Source of the DNA: Litorimonas cladophorae
GTDB lineage: Bacteria; Pseudomonadota; Alphaproteobacteria; Caulobacterales; Maricaulaceae
DNA: 64,000 nucleotides
Direction of reading: 5' to 3'
Assembly: GCF_014652455.1 (NCBI RefSeq)
Contig: NZ_BMYV01000002.1
Location: 806,001 to 870,000 of the forward strand
Positions 42,735 through 53,665 of the stretch are shown piece by piece. Each line of letters opens with the position of its first letter. Within the stretch, counting starts at the first letter, position 1. A model generated the notes under the pieces. It saw nothing but the letters and a program-made list of their open reading frames with translations, did not search any database and had not been told where the DNA came from. Position numbers and translations under genes: made by a program.

Positions 42735-43313
42735 ATGAATCCCCTCAAGACGCAGAACCTTGAGCTTACCCTTGACGATGAAATCGTCCAAATGTCCGTG
42801 AATGGTCCCATGACCAACGAGACCGTCCAGTCCACATTCGAGTGGATCGAAACCGCGCAGGCCGAAGCGGTAGGTGCGAATGACAACCTCCAACTCTGCG
42901 TGGAGATGCAATCTGAGAATTTCACCGATCTGGCAGAGGCCAGCCAGCAGTTCCGCCGTGTGGGCGAAGTTCTGCGTCGCGCCCATGACATTGATCGTTG
43001 CGCCCTGATCACCGATAGCAATTGGATCCGAAACTCCGCCAAAATTGAAGGCGCTGTCATTCCAGGCCTAGAGCTGATGGCATTTGAGCCAGAAGAAGCG
43101 ACAGCCGCAAAAAAATGGCTGCGTGACGAACCGCTTGTTGGTGAAGCCGCAGAGCTGACCCCCGCGCTGCACGCCCAAGAGGCGCAAGACGTCGCAAACA
43201 CCGCAATCATCACGCCCCAATCGCCACAAAAGGCGACGTCATTACCCAAATCGGCCCCCGCACCCGCCGATAATCCGTGGGAGAATTTCAGCGTGAAGAA
43301 CCTCGACCTATAG
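42735..43313 (+). CDS. SpoIIAA/STAS-like protein
   Basis: A 192-residue soluble protein. The first 125 residues (DEIVQMSVNGPMTNETVQS, then DIDRCALITDSNWIRN and PGLELMAF) match the SpoIIAA-like/STAS fold, which in this family has no clear enzymatic motif. The last 65 residues are low-complexity, Ala/Pro-rich, ending WENFSVKNLDL. The ribosome site AGGAG lies eight bases before the ATG. The terminator at 43343 follows. Function unknown. Confidence 0.75.
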   Translation: MNPLKTQNLELTLDDEIVQMSVNGPMTNETVQSTFEWIETAQAEAVGANDNLQLCVEMQSENFTDLAEASQQFRRVGEVLRRAHDIDRCALITDSNWIRNSAKIEGAVIPGLELMAFEPEEATAAKKWLRDEPLVGEAAELTPALHAQEAQDVANTAIITPQSPQKATSLPKSAPAPADNPWENFSVKNLDL

Positions 43314-43342
43314 GCCGCGCGCACGCATTTGAAATGACCGAG

Positions 43343-43367
43343 CCCTGCTCTTCCGAGCGGGGTTTTT
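43343..43367 (+). terminator. rho-independent terminator after the STAS-like gene
   Basis: Eight-base stem CCCTGCTC/GAGCGGGG (one G-T pair) with the stable tetraloop TTCC, immediately followed by TTTTT. It ends transcription before the structured gene-free stretch. Confidence 0.88.
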
Positions 43368-43441
43368 ATTTGGGAAATATTGAGGCAAGCGTCGTCGCTC
43401 ACGGCCCATCTAGTGGCAACTAACCGATGTCAACTCAACGC

Positions 43442-43520
43442 GCGGGTTGGGTCTAGCGAAATTGATCCACGATCAATTTCTGCAGGGGCGGCAACCCGCA
43501 AATCAAGGGCGAAGCCCTTG
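43442..43520. other. nested inverted repeats, candidate structured RNA element A
   Basis: An outer stem GCGGGTT/AACCCGC (43442-43448, 43493-43499) encloses a perfect ten-base hairpin GAAATTGATC-CAC-GATCAATTTC (43458-43480). A second hairpin CAAGGGC-GAA-GCCCTTG (43504-43520) follows four bases later. No protein gene of credible composition occupies 43368-44227. Between 43521 and 43940 I see only a weaker hairpin (43667-43694) and a nine-base direct repeat GGCTCTCAC (43697 and 43729). Confidence 0.45.
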
Positions 43521-43940
43521 TGAAAAAGGGACTGTCCGCGTGGCCGATATTCGCGATGGAATACCAGAAGTGAAATGTTGTTTTACGCAAATATCGGGAA
43601 CTGGGTTGTAAATCCAATTCACGAACACGCGGCAGCGGTTTTTGAAGAAGCGGCCAGTCATAAACCCCCGAGTTCAGACACTTGGACTGACGGGTCGGCT
43701 CTCACTCCTAAAGTCCCGGCACCTCTCTGGCTCTCACACCAAAACGCTCAGACCCACCGTCCTCCGAACGAGATAGAGAGCGCTACCCTGTCCCCTGTCC
43801 GAAAGAACCTAAACACCCTATCATAGGTTTTGAAAGCGGGGACGCATCTCTGGATTTTTTTCTAATACCTCGTTCTGGGTGCGGCTTTATTGGAAATGGG
43901 CGACGCCAGCGGGGATTATAAACGCGGAACATTCTGTTAA

Positions 43941-44029
43941 GTGGCCTAACCTGCCACCCCCATTGATGAACCAACGCTCAAAAAGGCCGGCAAAGACCTT
44001 TCGGGAAAGAGCGTTGGTTCCGTCAATGG
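43941..44029. other. long hairpin, candidate structured RNA element B
   Basis: A twelve-base perfect stem GAACCAACGCTC/GAGCGTTGGTTC (43968-43979, 44009-44020) is extended by CATTGA/TCAATG (43961-43966, 44023-44028) across a one-by-two internal loop. Inside is AAAGG/CCTTT with a ten-base loop. A small GTGGC/GCCAC hairpin (43941-43957) precedes it. Eighteen paired positions in 68 bases are very unlikely by chance. There is no T run directly after, so it is not a simple terminator. Confidence 0.5.
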
Positions 44030-44141
44030 ACGGCGATGTCGGCGCTGCGCCCCAGGGCCGACGTGGGTTAATCCTCCGATCCTCTGCAGAGACAGGTCAA
44101 AGCGTGGGGATTCCGTACTTTGCCGTTTCTGTCAGCGACGC

Positions 44142-44235
44142 CCCGAAGCGCCCCGCTTCGGGTGACTTCCGTATAGGCGGGCGGCAATCTGCCCGACGTG
44201 ACGACCGTCACGCGATGAGGGTTTTTATTATTTTT
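44142..44235 (+). terminator. hairpins with T-rich tail, possible end of a structured transcript
   Basis: Three perfect inverted repeats lie in series: CCCGAAGCG-CCC-CGCTTCGGG (44142-44162), CGGGC/GCCCG (44178-44195) and CGTGACG-AC-CGTCACG (44197-44212). A T-rich run (44222-44235) follows nine bases later. Together they could terminate a plus-strand transcript from the gene-free stretch. The T run overlaps the 3' end of the convergent phosphatase-like gene. Confidence 0.45.
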
Positions 44236-44572
44236 GCGCCCGACCTTGCGCGCGTTCAATAATGCCTGCTGTGCCACTGCGAAGGAGTTCGATGAGTTCG
44301 GGGTCGTTTTTCTGGTATTCGTCGGGAATATCTAGGACGTGGATTTCGGCAAATTTCGTCGGGGCAGGGAACATCCCCCGCAGACGGTTCTTATGCTTGT
44401 CCTCCATCACAAAAATCAAGTCGGCCCACGTGACGTCTTTTGCACTCACCGTCCGCCGCGCATTCGGGCTCGTCCCCGCAGAGCGCACAGACACCCCAGA
44501 CGTTTTCCAATACAGCGCCTCACCCGTAGGCGACCGCCATTGATTGCGAGAGCAGATGAAGAGAAGGTTCAT
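44228..44572 (-). CDS. short low-molecular-weight phosphatase-like protein
   Basis: A 114-residue protein starting MNLLFICSRNQWRS, with the CX5R(S) phosphate loop of LMW tyrosine phosphatases (Cys7, Arg13). SAGTSPNARR, LIFVMEDKHKNRL and the DIPDEY segment follow the same family order, with an acidic residue in the position of the general acid. It is shorter than classic LMW-PTPs (about 150 residues). It may dephosphorylate protein tyrosine or another substrate. It follows the dioxygenase gene by eleven bases on the same strand. Confidence 0.85.
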   Translation of the reverse strand: MNLLFICSRNQWRSPTGEALYWKTSGVSVRSAGTSPNARRTVSAKDVTWADLIFVMEDKHKNRLRGMFPAPTKFAEIHVLDIPDEYQKNDPELIELLRSGTAGIIERAQGRAQK

Positions 44573-45837: not shown

Positions 45838-46458
45838 ATGGTCATGGACAAAACACTTAATGCTTCTGTCTACAAGCTAGCTCTCAGAAACGTAGAGAAA
45901 TTTTACCACACTAGCAGTAGAACACATATCTATTACCAGCCGCACATTGGGTCGCTTGGTGTCAAAGGCTTCGGCGGATTTGCCGATGAAGCCTACGAAA
46001 ATTACGACTCAAATCTAAGAGAAATTTTAGGTCGCTTGTCAGTTGAGGAACTTTCTCGCTCCATGCAGCTTATTATGGATGGACCAAGAGGGATCGAAGC
46101 TCGTCGCGAAATTCAAATTAGATTACCAAGTGATCTAAAAAGTAAGTTAAGACAGAATGCAGAAGACAACAGGACTTCCATGTCTGACCTTATTATTGAA
46201 CTCATTGACCAGGCAATGCCCTACACTTCAGATGAGACAGAAATGGTCGTCTGGCGTGAGAAATTTTCAGAGTCGATGGATGTTGCGAATAAATTGAAAG
46301 CATCTTCGACGGTGTCTAGCCTAGTTAGCGTAAGTGTGAGACTTTCGGAGCACAGGCTTGAGGCTATCGAGAATGTCGCCGACTCTATGGACGTCCGATT
46401 CTCGAAACTATTGGCCGGTATAGTCACTAAACAGGCTAGGGATCTTGTTGCGGCTTAG
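45838..46458 (+). CDS. protein with two ribbon-helix-helix-like segments, probable regulator
   Basis: A 206-residue protein. Residues about 91-125 (REIQIRLPSDLKSKLRQNAE, then TSMSDLIIELIDQ) match an Arc-type ribbon-helix-helix. Residues about 162-200 repeat the pattern (VSVRLSEHRLEAIENVAD, then VRFSKLLAGIV). The N-terminal 90 residues are not recognised and contain a Tyr-rich stretch (FYHTSSRTHIYYQPH). Two RHH units in one chain would form a pseudo-dimer. AAGG lies eight bases before the ATG. Base composition is visibly more AT-rich than its neighbours. Confidence 0.7.
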   Translation: MVMDKTLNASVYKLALRNVEKFYHTSSRTHIYYQPHIGSLGVKGFGGFADEAYENYDSNLREILGRLSVEELSRSMQLIMDGPRGIEARREIQIRLPSDLKSKLRQNAEDNRTSMSDLIIELIDQAMPYTSDETEMVVWREKFSESMDVANKLKASSTVSSLVSVSVRLSEHRLEAIENVADSMDVRFSKLLAGIVTKQARDLVAA

Positions 46459-52666: not shown

Positions 52667-52909
52667 AGGCCGTAGTCATGCGGAAATTGAGGGCTCTGTC
52701 AAAGCGCATTTCTGCATGCGGGGGCGCGGGATATGATTGGCCGGTGCTTCGGTTCTTTCGTGTTTCGAAAATTGAATGATCTTGCGCGTCAATTAAATCG
52801 GATGCGCATATTTATCTTTCGCGCCGGACCATGATTTCGACGGACATTAGATCAGCGGCTTAGAGCCCCGAAAGAAGGCCGCTGGTCATGTTTGTAAATG
52901 AGTTTGATT

Positions 52910-53536: not shown

Positions 53537-53665
53537 TTAAATTATGTGTCACTTTTGGCGTCATCCGACTGTGTGGCTTAAAATCGCCCAAAGTAAGACA
53601 CTGAGCAAGCGTCCTCTTAGAGGGAAAACTTGCTATAGATGTTGCGATTGCAAAGACTGACGGCT

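Follow-up and report, generated by a model that had tools for sequence, protein, structure and literature searches.

A dispersed family of large structured RNA genes, apparently undescribed, and its candidate partner protein in Litorimonas cladophorae and related bacteria

The interval and its two conserved stretches

The window analyzed in this study is a 64,000-nt stretch of DNA from the marine bacterium Litorimonas cladophorae (contig NZ_BMYV01000002.1, positions 806,001 to 870,000), and all coordinates are given within it. The studied interval is flanked on the left by the plus-strand gene of a SpoIIAA-like (STAS) protein (42735–43313; Pfam PF11964, E 2.3e-13) and its intrinsic terminator (43340–43372, plus strand; identified by sequence and terminator scan). 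On the right, it is followed by a minus-strand gene of the low-molecular-weight phosphatase family (44228–44572; Pfam PF01451, E 1.1e-7). The inverted repeats that an earlier note had described here were present in the sequence: a nested repeat (43442–43449/43492–43499) enclosing a 10-bp hairpin (43458–43467/43471–43480), a long hairpin of 12 perfect pairs (43968–43979/44009–44020), which was lengthened in the fold across a mismatch, and a 9-base hairpin (44142–44150/44154–44162). Folding of the interval was stronger than that of 20 dinucleotide shuffles (z −3.67 for the plus and −4.23 for the minus strand), none of which equaled it.

When positions 43380–44235 were compared by BLAST with 149 related genomes, 13 were matched, with 1–5 matches each, and all matches were confined to approximately the first 480 of the 856 query bases. 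The interval is therefore composite: its left half is a dispersed repeat and its right half is not. The earlier suggestion of one large noncoding RNA, several, or a mobile or regulatory element was right in outline, as the interval holds one large covarying noncoding RNA of a dispersed repeat family and a second conserved structured stretch. The composite nature of the interval, the repetition of its left part dozens of times genome-wide, and the location of the RNA on the minus strand were all absent from that note.

The second stretch (43955–44228) was conserved in three genomes (G005, G009, and G013). It contains a long GAACCAACGCTC hairpin, a CCCGAAGCG...CGCTTCGGG hairpin, and CGTGACG..CGTCACG. 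In G005 it is found beside the phosphatase gene and is 80% identical over 218 query bases; matches at length were limited to G005 and the host among the 149 genomes, and two others matched by 30 bases. The counterparts in G009 and G013 are located behind the SpoIIAA-like gene, with the RNA element absent (by eye and alignment). For the four sequences, alifold energies were −88.3 for the plus and −92.6 for the minus strand, neither strand being favored, and the stretch had no Rfam match.

Other elements were also observed in the window. These were a cobalamin riboswitch (RF00174, 8090–8310, minus strand, 107 bits) and a gene for a ribbon-helix-helix/CopG-like protein (45838–46458, plus strand; sub-cut-off Pfam matches). 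A REP-like hairpin repeat, GAGCGnCTTA...TAAGnCGCTC with the loop AAATCGCCCAAA, was located at 53563–53613 and 52842–52894 (the latter a weak match), and was found at many loci of these genomes independently of the RNA family. An integron attC origin was considered and rejected: the short upstream repeat is an independent REP-like hairpin, and the strict attC pattern matched nothing in the window.

Fold, strand, and promoter of the RNA

Compared with its copies, the stretch 43808–43383 on the minus strand (approximately 426 nt) appears to be one gene of a dispersed multigene family encoding a large structured bacterial RNA, apparently undescribed. It was delimited by nhmmer and covariance model matches, by alignment A3 and its covariation, and, for the 3′ end, by comparison of copies. 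Alignment A3 comprised 55 of 64 selected rows (L095, L009, L021, L168, L109, L110, L107, L191, and L173 were dropped), and the 64 rows were drawn from 74 unique copies among the 137 extracted. The alifold structure of A3 had 80 pairs, with 4214 of 4360 cells paired (96.7%), counted in the same alignment from which the structure came. Two-sided changes were found at 47 of the 80 pairs. The covariation score was 0.489 vs. 0.235 in shuffles, with none of the 500 shuffles reaching it, and sliding the partners by 1–3 columns cut pairing to 38.8–50.1%. The pairs thus covary beyond both shuffled and slid controls, and the conserved pairing that the earlier note had proposed to look for is present in the aligned copies.

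The pairing statistics also distinguished the strands. In the sense of the minus strand, the pairs of A3 contained 701 G-U and 24 A-C cells, the numbers being reversed for the opposite strand, and the alifold energy was −134.3 in sense vs. −91.7 in antisense. In an earlier alignment (best 62 of 84 rows), the energies were −179.9 for the minus and −126.1 for the plus strand. Because of the G-U excess over A-C and the position of the promoter (see below), the RNA was placed on the minus strand. The plus-strand noncoding RNA implied by the earlier note was ruled out by the G-U/A-C statistics, and no plus-strand promoter was flagged by a simple sigma-70 scan.

The RNA can be divided into three parts, all on the minus strand. 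The multi-branched core domain (43625–43759) is covered by model R2, which has 40 pairs and gave 138.3 bits for its own match. The 3′ part of the core (43528–43624) carries a CCGCGUG...CACGCGG closing helix, an invariant GUAAAA, and a GUCCC end (helices 10–13 in the covariation test); the partner of this GUCCC is a GGGAC close to the RNA 5′ end. This end-to-end helix (5′ GGGAC/3′ GUCC[C/U]) had a standard pair in 56 of 62 copies: G-C in 26, G-U in 18, and A-U in 12. The other six had a U-U mismatch, and no copy had A facing C (Fisher p 1.7e-4, G/A vs. C/U, copies treated as independent). The alignments indicate a conserved multi-branched fold, with the 5′ and 3′ parts paired with each other. 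Copy comparison and alignment further delimited a variable 3′ tail (43383–43527), with the nested hairpin at 43442–43499 and a final GCG...CGC hairpin.

Internal stems were exchanged or lengthened among the 55 aligned copies. In L048, L049, and L050, a whole internal arm was swapped for a different one (GCACGACAUUGCGUGUC...), and several copies had a stem extension of approximately 45–60 nt near the 5′ end. From their alignment, the arm swaps and stem extensions are modular domain exchange between copies. A hairpin GTTGAAAC...GTTTCAAC recurred in the variable 3′ tails of otherwise different copies (L006, L018, L027, L034, and L050). Another alignment, A4, comprised 33 of 50 rows.

The predicted RNA start in the window copy is the G at 43808, and the predicted conserved 3′ end, ...CGCUUG, was placed at approximately 43386–43383 by comparing copies. 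This 3′ end and the terminator of the convergent SpoIIAA-like gene, which stops short of it, are approximately 11 nt apart. Across the family, the RNA is roughly 0.35–0.45 kb long (approximately 400 bases), and no conserved terminator or U-tract was found after its conserved 3′ end in the family-wide comparison of copies.

For the promoter, 68 copies were aligned at the 5′ GUUCUUUC. In most of them, a promoter-like extended −10 element preceded the conserved 5′ end at a constant distance. In the window copy, the predicted element is at 43815–43823 on the minus strand, with TG at 43823–43822 and the hexamer TAGGGT at 43820–43815. The pattern TGnTAnnnT was conserved at T−15 (82%), G−14 (85%), T−12 (69%), A−11 (94%), and T−7 (95%); the GTTCTTTC positions, as the anchor motif of the comparison, were conserved partly by construction, and the −10 positions are free of this. 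A conserved box with the consensus ATCCCCGC at −35 to −28 (GTCCCCGC in the window, 43836–43843, minus strand) stands where TTGACA would be; the minus-strand promoter contains no TTGACA. The generic sigma-70 scan missed this promoter (43815–43843), which emerged from the comparison of copies.

Copies, loci, and the partner protein

With a covariance model of the 171-nt core, for which 150 of 583 candidates were scored, the host genome had at least 42 matches at E ≤ 1e-3 and at least 20 above 70 bits; at E ≤ 10 there were at least 46, including partial matches among the weak ones. Of 137 genomes in the taxonomic family, 20 had matches to the RNA family: 12 of the 18 genus members, five genomes of a second genus, and three of a third. 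A second model (RNA-sense core) detected it in 12 of 398 genomes sampled from the order, in the same three of 59 genera. Per-genome copy numbers are lower bounds (20 candidates scored in the 137-genome search and eight in the 398-genome search). As six of the 18 genomes in the genus had no RNA match, the RNA is not essential in the genus.

A search with a 26-base pattern gave 50 stretches in named genome contigs. Uncultured Caulobacterales accounted for 43 of these and a metagenome-assembled genome (MAG) of Hellea sp. for five (Hellea is placed under Robiginitomaculaceae, Maricaulales in the NCBI taxonomy); the remaining two were from an Akkermansiaceae MAG and another bacterium. Besides the RNA, the Akkermansiaceae-labelled contig (L095, JALZUH010000075.1) has genes in synteny with a Hellea contig, which suggests that it was mis-binned. 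No RNA match was found in the phages and plasmids searched, or in viral contigs by exact pattern, and a phage or plasmid origin was rejected on these grounds.

In the first seven ORF-bearing copies found, a small ORF followed the RNA on the same strand at a distance of 11–57 nt. It encodes a mostly helical protein of 92–162 aa with a motif resembling LRxEQVKLRxLEW. Profile searches detected the protein in 13 of the 137 genomes, and in 12 of these the RNA was present (1–5 protein matches per genome, two in the host); the match in the thirteenth, G034, was weak. Of the 34 partner matches, 30 loci were fetched, and in 26 of the 30 the RNA was immediately upstream on the same strand, as model R1 also confirmed for 23 of the 26. 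Of the other four loci, three abut contig ends and one is the weak match in G034. From the 137 genomes searched, the partner protein appears to occur almost only beside the RNA. The reverse did not hold: eight of the 20 RNA-bearing genomes had no partner match at E ≤ 0.01, and the majority of RNA copies have no partner ORF (in the host, at least 42 RNA vs. two protein matches). At one locus common to two species, the ORF is found in the G005 copy (L123) and is absent from the host (G000) copy (L049).

Pairwise dN of the partner was 0.04–0.48, and dN/dS was at most approximately 0.36 in the 22 pairs, of 28 compared, that had a computable, often saturated dS. By these comparisons, the protein is under purifying selection. 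Five partner proteins stayed below every cut-off in Pfam and NCBIfam (best sub-cut-off E 0.033 or worse), and the partner profile matched no sequence in the PDB. One match to a function-unknown family in PHROGs (E 3.7e-4) and one weak match in PADLOC (E 0.0085, one of seven members) were not relied on. A single-sequence AlphaFold model had three helices (pLDDT 72.7, pTM 0.27) and gave no Foldseek match against the PDB. Given the low pTM and the lack of Foldseek or sequence matches in the PDB, no homology is claimed for the partner.

Many copies were located at the same position in different species (best flanking protein approximately 62–97% identical in the pairs used). Judged by branching order alone, the RNA tree of 64 copies was largely grouped by genome. 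The exceptions were groups mixing G000 with G005 copies, some single rows, and one cross-species clade, which consisted of five ORF-bearing loci (L029, L042, L166, L167, and L168) and L109; the ORF-bearing L068, L181, and L107 clustered with their genome-mates outside this clade. Of 24 same-locus pairs named, two were skipped and two had no paralogs; in several, orthology was shown for a single flank. In 17 of the 20 testable pairs, both members were nearer to a genome-mate, a count that does not equal 17 independent results, since pairs share members and each was compared with many genome-mates. One pair was mixed and two showed the reverse: L029/L042, which are ORF-bearing, and L120/L126, which are 100% identical. 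The copies have probably been homogenized within each genome by recombination (gene conversion); a similar tree would also result if copies were repeatedly lost and re-inserted at the same sites.

The window locus itself differed among genomes. G000 has the RNA copy, as does G008, where it lies behind the phosphatase gene. G005 has none beside the phosphatase gene, and G009, G010, and G013 have none behind the SpoIIAA-like gene; in G004, a copy lies on the other side of the SpoIIAA-like gene. Comparison of the loci indicates that the RNA family is gained and lost at them.

Genes around the copies were called with a custom codon-usage caller, which was used for both orientations and stop distances. 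Among 39 RNA 3′ ends facing convergent stop codons, 20 were within 15 nt and 11 within 4 nt of the stop. These distances start at the nhmmer boundary, which in some copies lies too deep within the RNA: the window copy was scored 202 nt from the stop, and its predicted 3′ end is approximately 70 nt away. At L037 (G000), the gene ends in SKYG* at the element, and its G002 ortholog, at a site free of the element, ends in SKY*. A neighbor gene common to all copies was sought, and no recurrent one was found.

Candidate explanations and relation to known RNAs

The reading that we favor, with about an even chance of being right, is a new unit of RNA and partner protein, amplified as a multigene family, homogenized in the genome, and functioning as a ribonucleoprotein in trans. 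As judged from their adjacency and co-occurrence, the RNA and the small helical protein would form a ribonucleoprotein, for which the RNA, working in trans, would serve as scaffold. The copies with both RNA and ORF may be the founding unit from which the ORF-less copies derive. The copies would have multiplied into gene ends, and recombination would then have preserved their similarity within a genome, as it does for rRNA genes.

A selfish mobile element is a possible, though less probable, explanation. The RNA would be the mobile or guide part of a ribonucleoprotein that inserts new copies of itself at the 3′ ends of genes. Copies with the ORF would be autonomous and those lacking it mobilized in trans, and the structure would be kept because only well-folded copies spread. 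The patchy presence at the window locus (G000 and G008, not G005, G009, G010, or G013), the large excess of ORF-less copies in the host, the 3′ ends hugging convergent stops, and the altered gene end at L037 are consistent with this. Terminal inverted repeats or a target duplication were not recognized by eye in the aligned ends (aligned without a defined left end or a close empty site), however, and none of the known kinds of transposase, nuclease, or reverse transcriptase was observed to accompany the family. The many copies at the same place across species and the lack of matches in phages, plasmids, and viral contigs (exact pattern) also argue against it. The reverse transcriptase domain RVT_1 had no match in the host genome, and retro-mobility by a resident enzyme was rejected for this reason. 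In the genus, RVT_1 was found in six of 18 genomes, four with RNA matches and two without. Given the absence of the domain from the host and its occurrence both with and without the RNA in the genus, a resident reverse transcriptase is probably not required. It is tentatively conceivable, if unlikely, that the family is a self-propagating RNA-protein element, made up of a large folded RNA and a helical protein of 90–160 residues, which spreads into gene 3′ ends and repeatedly overwrites sister copies with no recognizable transposase, nuclease, or reverse transcriptase.

That the RNA is a cis-acting leader, a 5′ untranslated region controlling the gene behind it, is improbable. It would account for the small gene 11–57 nt after the RNA in seven ORF-bearing copies with no conserved terminator between them, and some copies are just upstream of other same-strand genes. 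A leader or riboswitch needs a consistent same-strand downstream gene, but in the 94 distinct copies with a called gene, 55 were same-strand and 39 opposite, and the window copy faces a convergent gene. The leader reading was rejected because of this mixed orientation.

Membership in a known class (OLE, HEARO/omega RNA, group II intron, RNase P, or 6S), with divergence so high that the Rfam models miss it, is in our view very improbable. The Rfam check proposed in the earlier note gave no known family for the interval. At gathering score, the RNA family was unmatched in the window and at 20 other loci, and at E ≤ 10 the interval had three weak plus-strand sRNA matches (best E 0.43). A tmRNA was rejected, as ARAGORN reported one distant tRNA-Arg in the window and nothing else.

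Two known classes are likewise large structured RNAs with a protein partner. HEARO, the IscB omega RNA, is a structured RNA located ahead of an ORF; a genome has several copies, and many of these are ORF-less. The present RNA resembles it in size, position, copy number, and frequent lack of the ORF; it differs in having no Rfam HEARO match (gathering score in the window and 20 loci, E ≤ 10 in the interval) and in that its ORF encodes a 92–162 aa, mostly helical protein and not a recognized nuclease. The IscB/IsrB domain PF14239 (RRXRR) was found in none of the 18 genus genomes, although none of 14 control genomes was positive either. OLE RNA, which has Oap partner proteins, among them the membrane protein OapA encoded beside it, is a large, ornate bacterial RNA, usually single-copy. 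The likeness consists in a large, ornate RNA with a small partner protein encoded adjacent to it; in contrast to OLE, the RNA here has no Rfam OLE match, dozens of dispersed copies, and a partner without a recognized family.

Group II (IIC) introns without an ORF are structured RNAs in many copies, some near terminators or gene ends, as here. Unlike these, the RNA had no intron match in Rfam on either strand, and it has its own predicted promoter. REP/RAYT elements are dispersed intergenic repeats near gene ends, which also applies to the present family, but the RNA is approximately ten times longer, covarying, multi-branched, and promoter-bearing, and a separate REP-like repeat exists in these genomes. 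As outlined in PMC12286853, ROOL and GOLLD are large, multi-branched, strongly structured bacterial noncoding RNAs with unknown task. On that outline, the RNA described here is of the same general kind and differs in being shorter, multi-copy on the chromosome, and accompanied by a partner ORF; it had no Rfam match, and its exact pattern had no match in viral contigs. No description of the family was met in the literature listings and abstract openings searched.

A DNA-level structured repeat (REP/MITE-like) with no transcribed functional RNA would also be dispersed, intergenic, and hairpin-rich, and short REP-like hairpin repeats do occur in the host genome, but the one-strand preference for G-U over A-C is unexpected for DNA hairpins and the promoter, at its set distance from the 5′ end, points to RNA, which makes this reading highly implausible.

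Few large structured bacterial RNAs lack homologs, and those that do often reveal new biology. This RNA family unites strong covariation, dozens of dispersed promoter-bearing copies, and a partner that is under purifying selection and is found almost only alongside it, together with within-genome likeness at loci common to several species. The alignments, boundaries, promoter, and partner provide material for testing whether the family represents amplified ribonucleoprotein genes or RNA-based selfish elements, in either case of an apparently undescribed kind.
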